In this document: piece by piece, positions 12,569 through 21,499 of the stretch
Layout: every line of letters starts with the position of its first letter
Position numbering within the stretch: position 1 is the stretch's first letter
Assembly (NCBI RefSeq): GCF_003991905.1
Contig: NZ_RSCL01000014.1
Coordinates: 186,001 to 250,000 of the forward strand
Length of the DNA stretch: 64,000 bases
Reading direction: 5' to 3'
Source: Dulcicalothrix desertica PCC 7102
GTDB lineage: Bacteria > Cyanobacteriota > Cyanobacteriia > Cyanobacteriales > Nostocaceae
The notes under the pieces: generated by a model
What the model was told of the DNA's origin: nothing
Database searches by the model: none
Seen by the model: only the letters and a program-made list of their open reading frames with translations
Made by a program: the position numbers and the translations under genes

Positions 12569-12789
12569 ATATCACATTACGAAAATTCTTTCTAGATTAC
12601 TTAAATACAATGTTTCAGTATTATACGGAAATCAAAATGTATAAATAGGTATAAATTTGATATTACAAACTCCAACGATTACTGATTTTTAGCTGATTTT
12701 TGGAACAGTGTTGCTTTCGGTAATCACTGTCATAGAAAGTGATTGTTAAGTTTTACAATAAATATTGCATTTTACCTTTAAAATATCTT

Positions 12790-13005
12790 GAGTGGCATTT
12801 TATGCTTAAGCAGTCCTAATAGACCTGGCGTCACTTAACACAAAGGTAACGGCATCTGCTGTTACTAGTACCGCTCCTCACCACACAAGATGCTCGCGTT
12901 GATTAAGGCTCTGTTTTACAGTGTCTTAAGGACTGTCTCTCCCATCCCATGATAGTCAGCATGGGAGTTGTATGTATCGGAAACTTAGTGGCATTTTACC
13001 CTAAG
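12790..13005 (+). ncRNA. candidate structured RNA or 5' leader upstream of padR
   Basis: A gene-free region with unusually dense pairing. Hairpin 12846-12865 is GTAACGGCA with TGCTGTTAC. An unpaired C-rich tract (GCTCCTCACCACACA) follows, then hairpin 12903-12929 (12-bp stem with one mismatch and a TTT loop). A further stem joins CTCCCAT with ATGGGAG (about 12938-12975). CAGTCCT (about 12810) can pair with AGGACTG (about 12929) to close the first two hairpins. An 11-base direct repeat TGGCATTTTA(T/C) brackets the region (about 12793 and 12991). Strand is assumed from the downstream gene. It could be a free small RNA or the padR leader. I cannot place it in a known family. Confidence 0.35.
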
Positions 13006-13104
13006 TAACGTTATATACTTACATAATCAGGGGGTAGCACTATATACTGACTAGCATAACTCGTATGCTTAACCCTCAGGCATTTTTATAGCCATTCACC
13101 AACC

Positions 13105-13452
13105 ATGAAACTAGAGGATATATATCAGTTTTTTGACAATCCTCCGCCAACTTACTTGTGCCAAGAACTTGCGGTATGCTACATTTTATCAGTTTTGCTT
13201 AACGAGGGAGAATCTTACGGTACTGAGTTAATCCAGAAACTAGAAAACGAATACCCAACTTATCGACTTTCAGACACTGTACTATATAGTGCAATTAAAT
13301 TCTTGGAAGACGAAAAGGCAATTACTGGTTACTGGAAAAAGCTCGAAGGGCGAGGTCGTCCTAGACGGATGTACCAAATTTCTCCCGAATGGCAGGAACA
13401 CGCAAATTCGTTAGCCCAGCTATGGCAAAAGTATATCAAGGAGAGGTCTTAA
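13105..13452 (+). CDS. PadR family transcriptional regulator
   Basis: A 115-residue winged-helix regulator. The PadR signature runs from CYILSVLLNEGESYGTELIQ (about 25-44) through RLSDTVLYSAIKFLEDEKAI and the wing GRGRPRRMYQISPEW. The C-terminal helix is shorter than in classic PadR proteins, as in the small PadR-s2 type. It lies 56 bp before the CCB-type gene on the same strand, so it may share a transcript with it. Ligand and target are not evident. The long upstream region with paired segments could carry its operator or leader. Confidence 0.88.
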   Translation: MKLEDIYQFFDNPPPTYLCQELAVCYILSVLLNEGESYGTELIQKLENEYPTYRLSDTVLYSAIKFLEDEKAITGYWKKLEGRGRPRRMYQISPEWQEHANSLAQLWQKYIKERS

Positions 13453-13508: not shown

Positions 13509-14036
13509 ATGGATAGTGCAATTCTGCCATCGACGTTGATGCTAACGATACTTTTACTGGTTGGGCAATTTTTTTTCATCCGTGCCTCGACTAAAGACCG
13601 TACCGAAACAGCACAACTAACTTCAAAGCAACTTGAAGCAATACTTTTGCCGCAGTTGAAGGAATATTTCCAAGCGCGGTCTTACCGGGTGGCAGCGGTA
13701 GACCCGGGCCAAAACCAAGTTACCTTTGAAGGTTTTGTCCGACCTAGCCTGTTTTTAGCAGTGTTCCTAACGCTTCTATCTACTGTCGGTACATTATGCC
13801 TTGCCTTGGTTTTGTCGCAGCTTTTTCCGAACATCGGCGCCCTCAGTTTGGGGTTGCTGCTTCTCGCGCCTTTAAGTGGATTATTTTATTGGAGAAAAGC
13901 TGGAAGGCTTGAGAAAGTTTTGCTTCGGGTTGAACCGACATCAAGCAATGAAACTTTCTCAAGCCGAATAACTGTAGTTGCTCATCGTGATGAAATTATC
14001 CAGTTACGAGAGGCACTACAGTTAGAAGATATTTGA
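13509..14036 (+). CDS. cofactor assembly of complex C subunit B-like (CCB2/CCB4 family)
   Basis: A 175-residue membrane protein with an N-terminal helix (about 6-26, LMLTILLLVGQFFFIRAS) and two more around 78-124. The stretch FFFIRASTKDRTE and the following soluble segment resemble the CCB2/CCB4 family. In chloroplasts that family helps attach haem ci to cytochrome b6 of the b6f complex. The assignment rests on remembered family pattern, not on a catalytic motif. It lies downstream of padR on the same strand. Confidence 0.65.
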   Translation: MDSAILPSTLMLTILLLVGQFFFIRASTKDRTETAQLTSKQLEAILLPQLKEYFQARSYRVAAVDPGQNQVTFEGFVRPSLFLAVFLTLLSTVGTLCLALVLSQLFPNIGALSLGLLLLAPLSGLFYWRKAGRLEKVLLRVEPTSSNETFSSRITVVAHRDEIIQLREALQLEDI

Positions 14037-19984: not shown

Positions 19985-21499
19985 TTAACGCTTTCGCTTG
20001 GAACATGCTCGACTTTTACTAGTATTACTACTAGCTACTCGCTCAACATGAACCTTGACCAAAACACTCCAGTTAGGAACATTGTAATAGTCATGCCTAG
20101 ACACAACATCAACGCTTTGACGAATTAATTTATTGAGTTTAGACCAACCGCTCCACACATGTTTCCTCGAATTCACCTCAAGGTAAGTGTTTGTGGATGC
20201 GGGTAATTTCTCAGACAAATTCATTCCTCTTCTTGCAATGACTAAAGCTGCGGATATCTCGCTACTTAAGCCATACATTCGAGAGTATTTAACCAAACCA
20301 ATTAAACTTGTATATGCCGGATTTTTTTTGTATAAAGCAATGCCACGATTTGAAAGAATACTTTCTAGCAATTGATATAGCTGACTGTAAGCAAATCCAG
20401 AAAGCATACGAGCATATCGCTTACCTTTCTCTCTTAATCTTTGTTTTTTAGCTGAAAAATCTAATTCTTCACATACAACAGGACTTGCATATTTACTGGC
20501 TAATTTCGCTAATTCTAGACACGCATCAACTAATTGTTGCTGATTTGAGTTACTCGATAAGCCAGTTAATAAAGGAATTGTGCCACTATCAAATAAATTA
20601 CCATAGCTATCAACATAAGCCCAGCCGATAGATTTTGGATTAATATCTATTCCAATCGCACCGTATTGAATCGGTCTACTAACTGCTTTGATTGATTTAG
20701 GAGTAAATTGAACAGCTACTACCCAACGACCATTTTTTCGATAAAAATGCCAAGTTTTAGCTCCGAATGAAGGAAGTCTATTAATATTTCTATCAAAATT
20801 ACCTATTTCTGTTTCAATATATTTACCAAATCTTGATTCTAAACAATAAGGTACTTTTAAACGAATTTTCGTACCATCATACTGACAAGATTGATTTCCA
20901 AAGGATTCATCTTTTGAACCAACTATAAATATTTCTGAACTTGAAACGCTGACTTTGATTGTCGCAACTTTTAAATCAGCTATTTTCTTTGACAACTGAT
21001 AAATATAACGTTTTTTGTTATGAATCTGAAACTTTAAACCATGCCAGTTAGAGCGACCCGTCTCCAAATCACAGCATAGTGGTAAGTTGCATCCTGTTAA
21101 AGAGTTTTCCCAATTTTTCTGAGCGTAAAATTTCTGGCTATCAACTATTCTTTTTTCTGCATTTTTTAACCAAATTAGAGCAGACTTTAATTTACCTTCT
21201 AGCTGTTTAATATGGTTTAATCTACATTTTTTTGCTGAATCGACTTTAGCTAAAGCACTTGTAATAACTCCAGTCGCTTGCCTTTTATTTAGACTGTATT
21301 TGCTTTGTAAGTAAGTATTAAACTTGCTCTTGCCTTTTTGAAAATCTTTTTTGGACAAGATTACATTTACAGTTTCACTAACTGCCTGTTTAAATATGGT
21401 TGAAAAAGCATTTAAAAACATCTCGAACTCAGTAAAGCCAAGCTGGTTCATTTCCGACTCTGGCGTTGGCAATCCTTTCACATAGGTGAGTGTTACCAT
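19985..21499 (-). mobile_element. tnpB: IS200/IS605-family tnpB (OrfB) without tnpA
   Basis: A 504-residue TnpB-type protein, an RNA-guided nuclease relative of Cas12. RuvC-I has D285 (GIDINPKSIGW) and RuvC-II has E344/E345 (VVCEELDFS). The third site region is KYSRMYGLSSEISAALVIAR, where E414 takes the place of the usual Asp. The CxxC zinc ribbon of canonical TnpB is absent, as in the cyanobacterial and Firmicutes branch with NPAYTS..G..KY....GLS. No tnpA is present. The protein is full length with no frameshift. The stop codon lies within a few bases of the neighbouring gene fragment, which fits these elements, where the 3' end of tnpB overlaps the guide RNA scaffold. The coding region has no GGCGCC site, unlike its surroundings. 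Confidence 0.85.

Follow-up and report, generated by a model that had tools for sequence, protein, structure and literature searches.

Among described RNAs, Yfr1 is defined by ACUCCUCACAC, held unpaired between two stem-loops, and the accessible text of PMC2190773 gives it a length of 54-69 nt, an unpaired stretch of 16-20 nt, a U-tailed terminator and a frequent position by guaB and trxA. Yfr2 pairs with Yfr1 (PMC6778093 and PMC6974561), and in Nostoc the Yfr1/Yfr2 network has been linked both to nitrogen stress and to remodelling of the cell wall (PMC6974561). Extra RNAs with the Yfr1 motif exist besides Yfr1, those named in the available part of PMC6778093 being Syr5, Yfr104, TSS 2515196r and 3750139f of Nostoc PCC 7120, and Yfr10, the last of which interacts with Yfr2. 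The operators of PadR-family proteins are described in the excerpted text of PMC3506622 as inverted repeats, ATGT/ACAT, whose arms stand about 8-10 bases apart.

The window, by which we mean the whole stretch of 64 kb that was analysed, comes from a genome of 11.4 Mb, and the element considered here spans its positions 12790-13005. It is like Yfr1 in that an open tract with the core CUCCUCAC lies between two hairpins and in its predicted pairing with Yfr2, and nearly all of the same genomes carry Yfr1 as well. It is unlike Yfr1 in the tract itself, which is GCUCCUCACCACAC and not ACUCCUCACAC, in its size and fold (~165 nt of conserved structure with five helices and a weak U-tract) and in its neighbours, a DUF3611 gene and padR in place of guaB/trxA. 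We rejected membership of the Yfr1 family: no Yfr1 above the Rfam family threshold is present in the window or in eight relatives, the exact Yfr1 11-mer occurs in 0 of 119 non-redundant regions, and Yfr1 (RF01116) is a separate gene, found in 189 of the 192 genomes of the family and as one copy in the window's own genome, elsewhere than at this locus. The remark of an earlier note on this DNA, that the tract is close to the Yfr1 loop without being identical to it, is borne out by the common core, the missing 11-mer, the separate Yfr1 gene and a pairing with Yfr2 that is predicted as for Yfr1. Compared with Yfr10-like RNAs, the tract is likewise predicted to be accessible but has only the core CUCCUCAC in common, and where Yfr10 homologues are said, in the portion of the literature covered, to have little of sequence, structure or place in common apart from the Yfr1 motif, the RNA described here is conserved in all three.

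The Rfam scan proposed in that note identified no family: with Rfam 15 there was no match at the element at the gathering threshold, and relaxed thresholds gave three chance-level matches in the surrounding gap (E 3.2 to 9.1). The RNA family is absent from Rfam at threshold. In the accessible portions of the literature on PadR in Nostoc/Anabaena, on structured RNA in Nostocaceae and on Yfr1/Yfr2/Yfr10, no paper is recognizable as dealing with this locus; a PadR gene of N. punctiforme is named there and is not tied to the padR here. PMC4734099 lists transcription-start-based sRNAs of Nostoc PCC 7120, several of them limited to heterocystous strains, and the available part of its Table 1 has entries of like length, 6274486f (169 nt, homologues 26/27) and 4772591r (155 nt, 17/27), none tied there to this locus. 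The element may already stand in that table, with its structure and tract unremarked. Genome G102 proved no substitute for PCC 7120 coordinates, since by hand calculation it did not show the offsets expected between the two published motif sites.

The padR locus and the fold of the RNA

The element lies in a gap of 536 bases, 12569-13104, bounded by ORF starts, which confirms the gene-free region given in the earlier note. The features of the locus are listed here in order.

Upstream flank of the gap, minus strand: DUF3611 gene, with seryl-tRNA synthetase further out
12734-12784, plus strand: conserved AT-rich promoter-like block, putative -10 TAAAAT at 12779-12784
12803-12970, plus strand: structured RNA core, match to covariance model R1 (G000:C14:198803-198970; E 6.2e-26; the window's own sequence is one of the 30 used to build R1)
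12811-12817, plus strand: 5' strand of P0, CAGTCCT, pairing with its 3' strand AGGACTG at 12929-12935
12822-12826, plus strand: 5' strand of P1, aligned partner 12895-12899
12827-12841, plus strand: single-stranded block GGCGTCACTTAACAC, majority form GGCATCACTTGACAC, 1.4-1.6 bits per column
12845-12866, plus strand: P2 hairpin (hairpin 1)
12873-12886, plus strand: unpaired Yfr1-like tract GCUCCUCACCACAC, 1.76 bits per column at its centre
12903-12929, plus strand: P3 hairpin (hairpin 2)
12946-12965, plus strand: P4 hairpin (third hairpin)
13004-13019, no strand: PadR-operator-like site 1, AGTA-N8-TACT, by sequence pattern
13033-13048, no strand: PadR-operator-like site 2, GGTA-N8-TACT, overlapping a -10-like TATACT
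13074-13104, plus strand: conserved padR start region, 1.35-1.8 bits per column, pairing weakly with the tract
13105-13452, plus strand: padR (Pfam PF03551, E 6e-12)
13509-14036, plus strand: ccb1, cofactor assembly of complex C subunit B (Pfam PF12046, E 3.7e-67)

All of the structural parts that the earlier note had picked out are present, namely two hairpins with an unpaired C-rich tract, GCTCCTCACCACAC, between them, the closing pairing that we call P0 and a third hairpin. The direct repeat that it placed at both ends is also there but measures 12 bases and not 11 (AGTGGCATTTTA at 12791-12802 and 12987-12998), and it is not conserved as a repeat in the family, the last 11 bases occurring twice in just 7 of the 119 non-redundant relatives' regions, the window included. 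In a conservation profile of 59 sequences, which remained after filters for length (98 of 119) and redundancy, information content peaks over 12734-12843, in the tract, around the operator-like sites and where padR starts; the first repeat copy falls in a conserved block. Taken in ten-base steps, the block 12734-12784 carries 1.3-1.7 bits per column, compared with 0.9-1.1 just upstream, and may well serve as a promoter. A consensus scan called no plus-strand promoter in the gap, and by eye no Shine-Dalgarno sequence is visible in the padR start region. Elsewhere in the window, an ORF of 504 aa (19985-21499, minus strand) looks by eye to be of the TnpB type and transposon-associated.

Folded as a single sequence the plus strand is unremarkable (z -1.57, with 16 of 200 shuffles folding as well), and the minus strand gives z -2.49 with 3 of 200; the case for structure beyond chance comes from the covariation seen in relatives. 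The window's own sequence forms P1 poorly; the helix is supported in the relatives, where compensatory pairs such as AGCUC/GAGCU and GACCU/AGGUC are found, and the spacing between P2 and P3, 36 nt in the window, is in relatives partly taken up by P1. RNAalifold offered an alternative in which GCUC of the tract pairs with the 3' strand of P1, but a lineage with CGACCU/AGGUCG does not follow it, and P1 is preferred for that reason. The block 12827-12841 is kept even in two diverged loci (L222 and L227). Two others (L021 and L029, from some genomes of genus g7) carry a repeat-like insert of ~60 nt upstream of P2 with the tract intact. A terminator-like site at 12945-12966 covers P4, which is terminator-like at best: T-rich sequence 3' of it (a run of five T or at least seven T in 12) is found in 35 of 100 sequences, three of them with a run of five T. 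We also considered an encoded peptide and rejected it, because the short ORFs look unconserved by eye and the one reading MLKQS-stop from 12802 loses its start and frame in relatives.

Conservation of the structure and its linkage to padR

The covariance modelling with homologous padR upstream regions that the earlier note had called for found both conservation and covariation. A1 holds 47 of 71 clusters, 20 having been left out as longer than 225 nt and four as wrongly cut; A2 holds 30 of those 47, and its pairing figures describe the better-aligned part of the family, since 17 sequences with inserts or divergence were removed by hand. On A2, aligned with MAFFT, 82.2% of cells pair in the five-helix structure against 31.1-43.1% when the partners are slid by one to three columns, a comparison that favours the named partners in that the structure was drawn from the A2 sequences themselves. 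Double changes occur in 25 of the 35 pairs, and of 500 shuffles none reached the paired percentage, either double-change count or the covariation score, with 37 reaching the number of pair types. A3, in which 100 chosen loci were aligned to the model and which leans towards it for that reason, gives 83.9% paired cells and double changes in 33/35 pairs, a count reached by 5/500 shuffles.

By helix, double changes were found in 8/9 pairs of P2, 7/9 of P3 and 4/6 of P4 in A2, and in every pair of each (9/9, 9/9 and 6/6) in A3. P0 (helix 1) has 75.7% of cells paired and double changes in two of six pairs in A2, with 74.3% and four of six in A3, and P1 (helix 2) has 75.3% and four of five in A2. 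RNAalifold recovered P2 and P3 from 47 sequences, with double changes in 10 of 11 pairs, and P4 too from 59. On the padR tree, a single parsimony reconstruction counted 139 double changes in the named pairs (2877 pairable cells); with slid partners the count was 60-69, in a smaller number of pairable cells (1098-1407). P2, P3 and P4 are the best supported helices and P0 and P1 moderately so, and the presence of a conserved structured RNA at 12790-13005, as the earlier note had supposed, is strongly supported by conservation and covariation in sequence comparisons.

A plain DNA search matched the element in 122 of the 192 genomes of the family, and the covariance model R1 in 155. The padR protein is encoded in 156, among them all 155 that carry the RNA, so that presence of the two agrees in 191/192 genomes (155 with both, 36 with neither and one, G081, with padR only), and the RNA was found without padR in none. 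Among the 30 loci first studied padR lay downstream in every one and the DUF3611 gene beside the element in 29; in a larger set it was seen there in 139 of 141 loci, and in the remaining two the locus edge cuts the sequence short. These are counts of loci and not of genomes, as named and unnamed loci overlap, and relatedness is only partly handled, through the padR tree. The conserved 5' block stands in the same direction at most 420 nt before padR in all 119 non-redundant regions, and the distance from the end of R1 to the padR ATG is 130-135 nt in nine of 13 genomes picked and 113-189 in the rest. Two loci of a lineage with 4-4.5 Mb genomes, L224 (G042) and L226 (G081), keep padR with the tract gone, the RNA of G081 being a decayed remnant. 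Within the window's own genome, a search for further copies gave only short weak matches, the best with E 0.19.

Scanning named genomes for an exact pattern yielded 31 matches, in Nostoc, Calothrix, Fischerella, Chlorogloeopsis, Westiellopsis, Scytonematopsis, Mojavia, Goleter and Atlanticothrix, all of which we take to be heterocyst-forming genera. R1 matched 46 of 388 genomes in a sample of the order, 45 of them inside the family, and 24 of 386 in a sample of the phylum, all inside it; the family, order and phylum samples overlap, and weak relatives may be missed because the large samples were scored with stricter filters. The sole match outside the family, in G206, is weak (E 1.9e-4 for one genome of 388); the tract is missing from its alignment, and the 1.7 kb examined there showed no padR. 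That locus (L215, 774-898) shares GGCAUC and the P3 hairpin with its flanks, and may be a remote relic or a chance match.

Between the RNA and padR stand the two operator-like sites. At least one such site, with at most one mismatch, lies within 120 nt of the padR start in 118/119 regions against a shuffle mean of 0.09 (one per region), and two or more are found in 67/119, with clusters about 70 and 100 nt upstream of the start codon. The geometry is that of PadR operators, inverted tetramers with eight bases between, but the letters are AGTA/TACT instead, and an operator role is for this reason one that we infer. These two palindromic sites, 29 bp apart before padR and conserved in the family, suggest PadR autoregulation. 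An operator-pattern scan of six genomes for a PadR regulon returned six matches, three at padR and three elsewhere; the pattern used does not cover the two sites of the window.

The open tract and its predicted partners

CTCCTC is kept in 112 of the 119 non-redundant regions and missing in seven, and the longer form of the tract that was searched for occurs in 85. The predicted mean unpaired probability of the tract is 0.72 against 0.46 for the whole RNA, and it is the higher of the two in 93 of 100 sequences. We found no common partner for it in cis within padR-ccb1 across 18 loci: the best pairing was weaker than the shuffled mean in 14, equal in one and stronger in three (L026, L020 and L033), with a stronger site at -20.4 kcal/mol that stands in L026 alone. 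Pairing with the area near the padR start gave -7.9 to -8.8 and once -12.6 kcal/mol. Exact 11-nt complements of the tract in four genomes numbered 21, three of them the element's own antisense and most within ORFs; none lay at most 60 nt before the start of an ORF of at least 60 aa, and three lay at 70-108 nt. In the window's own genome, five of nine complements, the element excluded, fall within ORFs of two groups, the members of each being alike and apparently repeated (G000:C13:201526 and 202108; C33:91961, C35:38200 and C69:14480).

A likely partner in trans is Yfr2, represented in Rfam by Cyano-1 (RF01701), which we take to be the same RNA. Yfr2 would be the other side of the interaction and is not a relative of the element, and its 5' end (GUGUGUGAGGAGC/U) complements the tract, which is able to pair with it with a bulged C; of the 11 exact Yfr1 11-mers in the window's own genome, 3 are Yfr2 copies read in antisense. 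Each of five genomes searched also holds one Yfr2-like RNA just under the Cyano-1 cut-off (L265 at G000:C1:279786-279853, L261, L263, L264 and L266), near-identical across five genera. It has a promoter resembling TTGACT...TATATT and a hairpin with T-rich sequence behind it, and seems to be a distinct conserved branch of the Yfr2 family. The 16-nt tract pairs with the Yfr2-like RNA of the same genome at -23.9 to -27.5 kcal/mol through 14-15 pairs in all five genomes, and a 13-nt Yfr1 motif reaches -19.1 kcal/mol with that of G000. On canonical Yfr2 the values are -19.7 to -24.4 for the tract and -18.7 to -21.2 kcal/mol for the Yfr1 motif, the tract being better in four of five genomes and slightly worse in G029; the unequal query lengths favour the tract somewhat, and the energies ignore internal structure.

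Shuffled tracts did as well with the Yfr2-like RNA in 0-1 of 2000 cases for three tract forms, and with longer tract pieces against Yfr2 5' fragments 0-11 of 500 shuffles did so. Full-length duplexes with the Yfr2-like RNA were weakly better than shuffles, 22-60 of 300 being as good, energies that are uninformative because RNAduplex ignores internal structure. The match to Yfr2 may be partly generic, as Shine-Dalgarno-like and anti-Shine-Dalgarno-like sequences pair easily. Among the Yfr2-type RNAs with which pairing of the tract is predicted, the best partner is the Yfr2-like copy present in all five genomes.

A small RNA or a leader of padR

The account that we tentatively favour, which falls somewhat short of being probable, is a trans-acting base-pairing RNA like Yfr1 and Yfr10 that competes for Yfr2 and shares one locus with padR. 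The element would then be a conserved non-coding RNA family of ~165 nt in heterocyst-forming cyanobacteria, probably transcribed from its own promoter just upstream, with helices that, judging by covariation and predicted accessibility, would leave the tract GCUCCUCACCACAC open. It would act by base pairing through this anti-Shine-Dalgarno-like tract, as Yfr1 and Yfr10 do, with the single-stranded 5' end of small RNAs of the Yfr2 type (GUGUGUGAGGAGC) as the likeliest predicted partner, which would bring competition with Yfr1 for Yfr2, and with Shine-Dalgarno regions of mRNAs as predicted alternative partners. Through the operator-like sites and the -10-like sequence behind the RNA, PadR could repress itself and block transcription arriving from the RNA gene, and the RNA would be tied to padR because the two, as we propose, form one regulatory locus.

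A separate RNA is favoured by its own promoter-like block, by the twin sites and TATACT behind it and by the lack of a common cis partner; against it stand the constant company of padR (155/155), which a free-standing small RNA need not keep, and a P4 that is unconvincing as a terminator. The favoured account is also weakened by exact 11-nt complements that do not lie where targets would be expected, by full-length duplexes little better than shuffles, by a Yfr2 match that may be partly generic and is slightly worse than that of the Yfr1 motif in G029, and by the seven regions lacking CTCCTC and the loss of the tract beside a retained padR in G042 and G081. The company of padR and the weak P4 speak for the main rival, in which the padR mRNA would carry the element at its 5' end as a long structured cis leader, with the C-rich tract as a landing site for Yfr2-type or other trans RNAs. 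The lock-step of RNA and padR over the family, the 5' block fixed in direction and range before padR with a fairly steady spacing, and the absence of a clear terminator 3' of P4 would all suit such a leader, although co-loss is weak evidence of a cis function, since one deletion can remove adjacent sequences. The operator-like sites and -10-like sequence between RNA and padR argue the other way, as does the fact that no expression platform is seen: the tract pairs weakly with the padR start, the long-range pairing from RNAalifold is only 3 bp and no conserved strong terminator is there for a terminator switch. We place the small RNA slightly ahead and hold the leader to be a real possibility that we nonetheless do not expect.

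The other explanations fare worse. The block 12734-12784 and the AGTA-N8-TACT sites do resemble DNA elements, and the whole might be mainly DNA, a large promoter/operator region with hairpins that are protein-binding inverted repeats; this is improbable, since an open, conserved tract enclosed by five nested helices that show compensatory changes (G-U pairs among them) is the mark of RNA. Descent from Yfr1 as a diverged paralogue, for which the common core CUCCUCAC between two hairpins would speak, is mostly refuted by the failure of the Rfam Yfr1 model; the lack of the 11-mer over the 119 regions, the different structure and neighbours and the presence of Yfr1 itself in nearly every genome also speak against it, and we regard it as very improbable. 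Chance hairpins in a gene-free region would fit the plus-strand folding energy (z -1.57) but are already refuted by conservation and covariation, and hardly deserve credence.

One may go further and see in the padR-linked RNA and the Yfr2-like RNA, whose 5' end reads GGUGUGUGAGGAGCG, a matched pair in heterocystous cyanobacteria, complementary over 14-15 bp with one bulge, that would form a third arm of the Yfr1/Yfr2 network. Their pairing would free Yfr1 from Yfr2 or place padR under the control of the Yfr2-like RNA, and would so connect the Yfr network, related to nitrogen and the cell wall, with a PadR sensor, a scheme that we consider rather unlikely as it stands. The element adds to the heterocystous cyanobacteria a well-conserved, structurally defined RNA family with a specific predicted partner. 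If the favoured account is true, the Yfr1/Yfr2 network would gain a further competitor, one attached to a PadR sensor.
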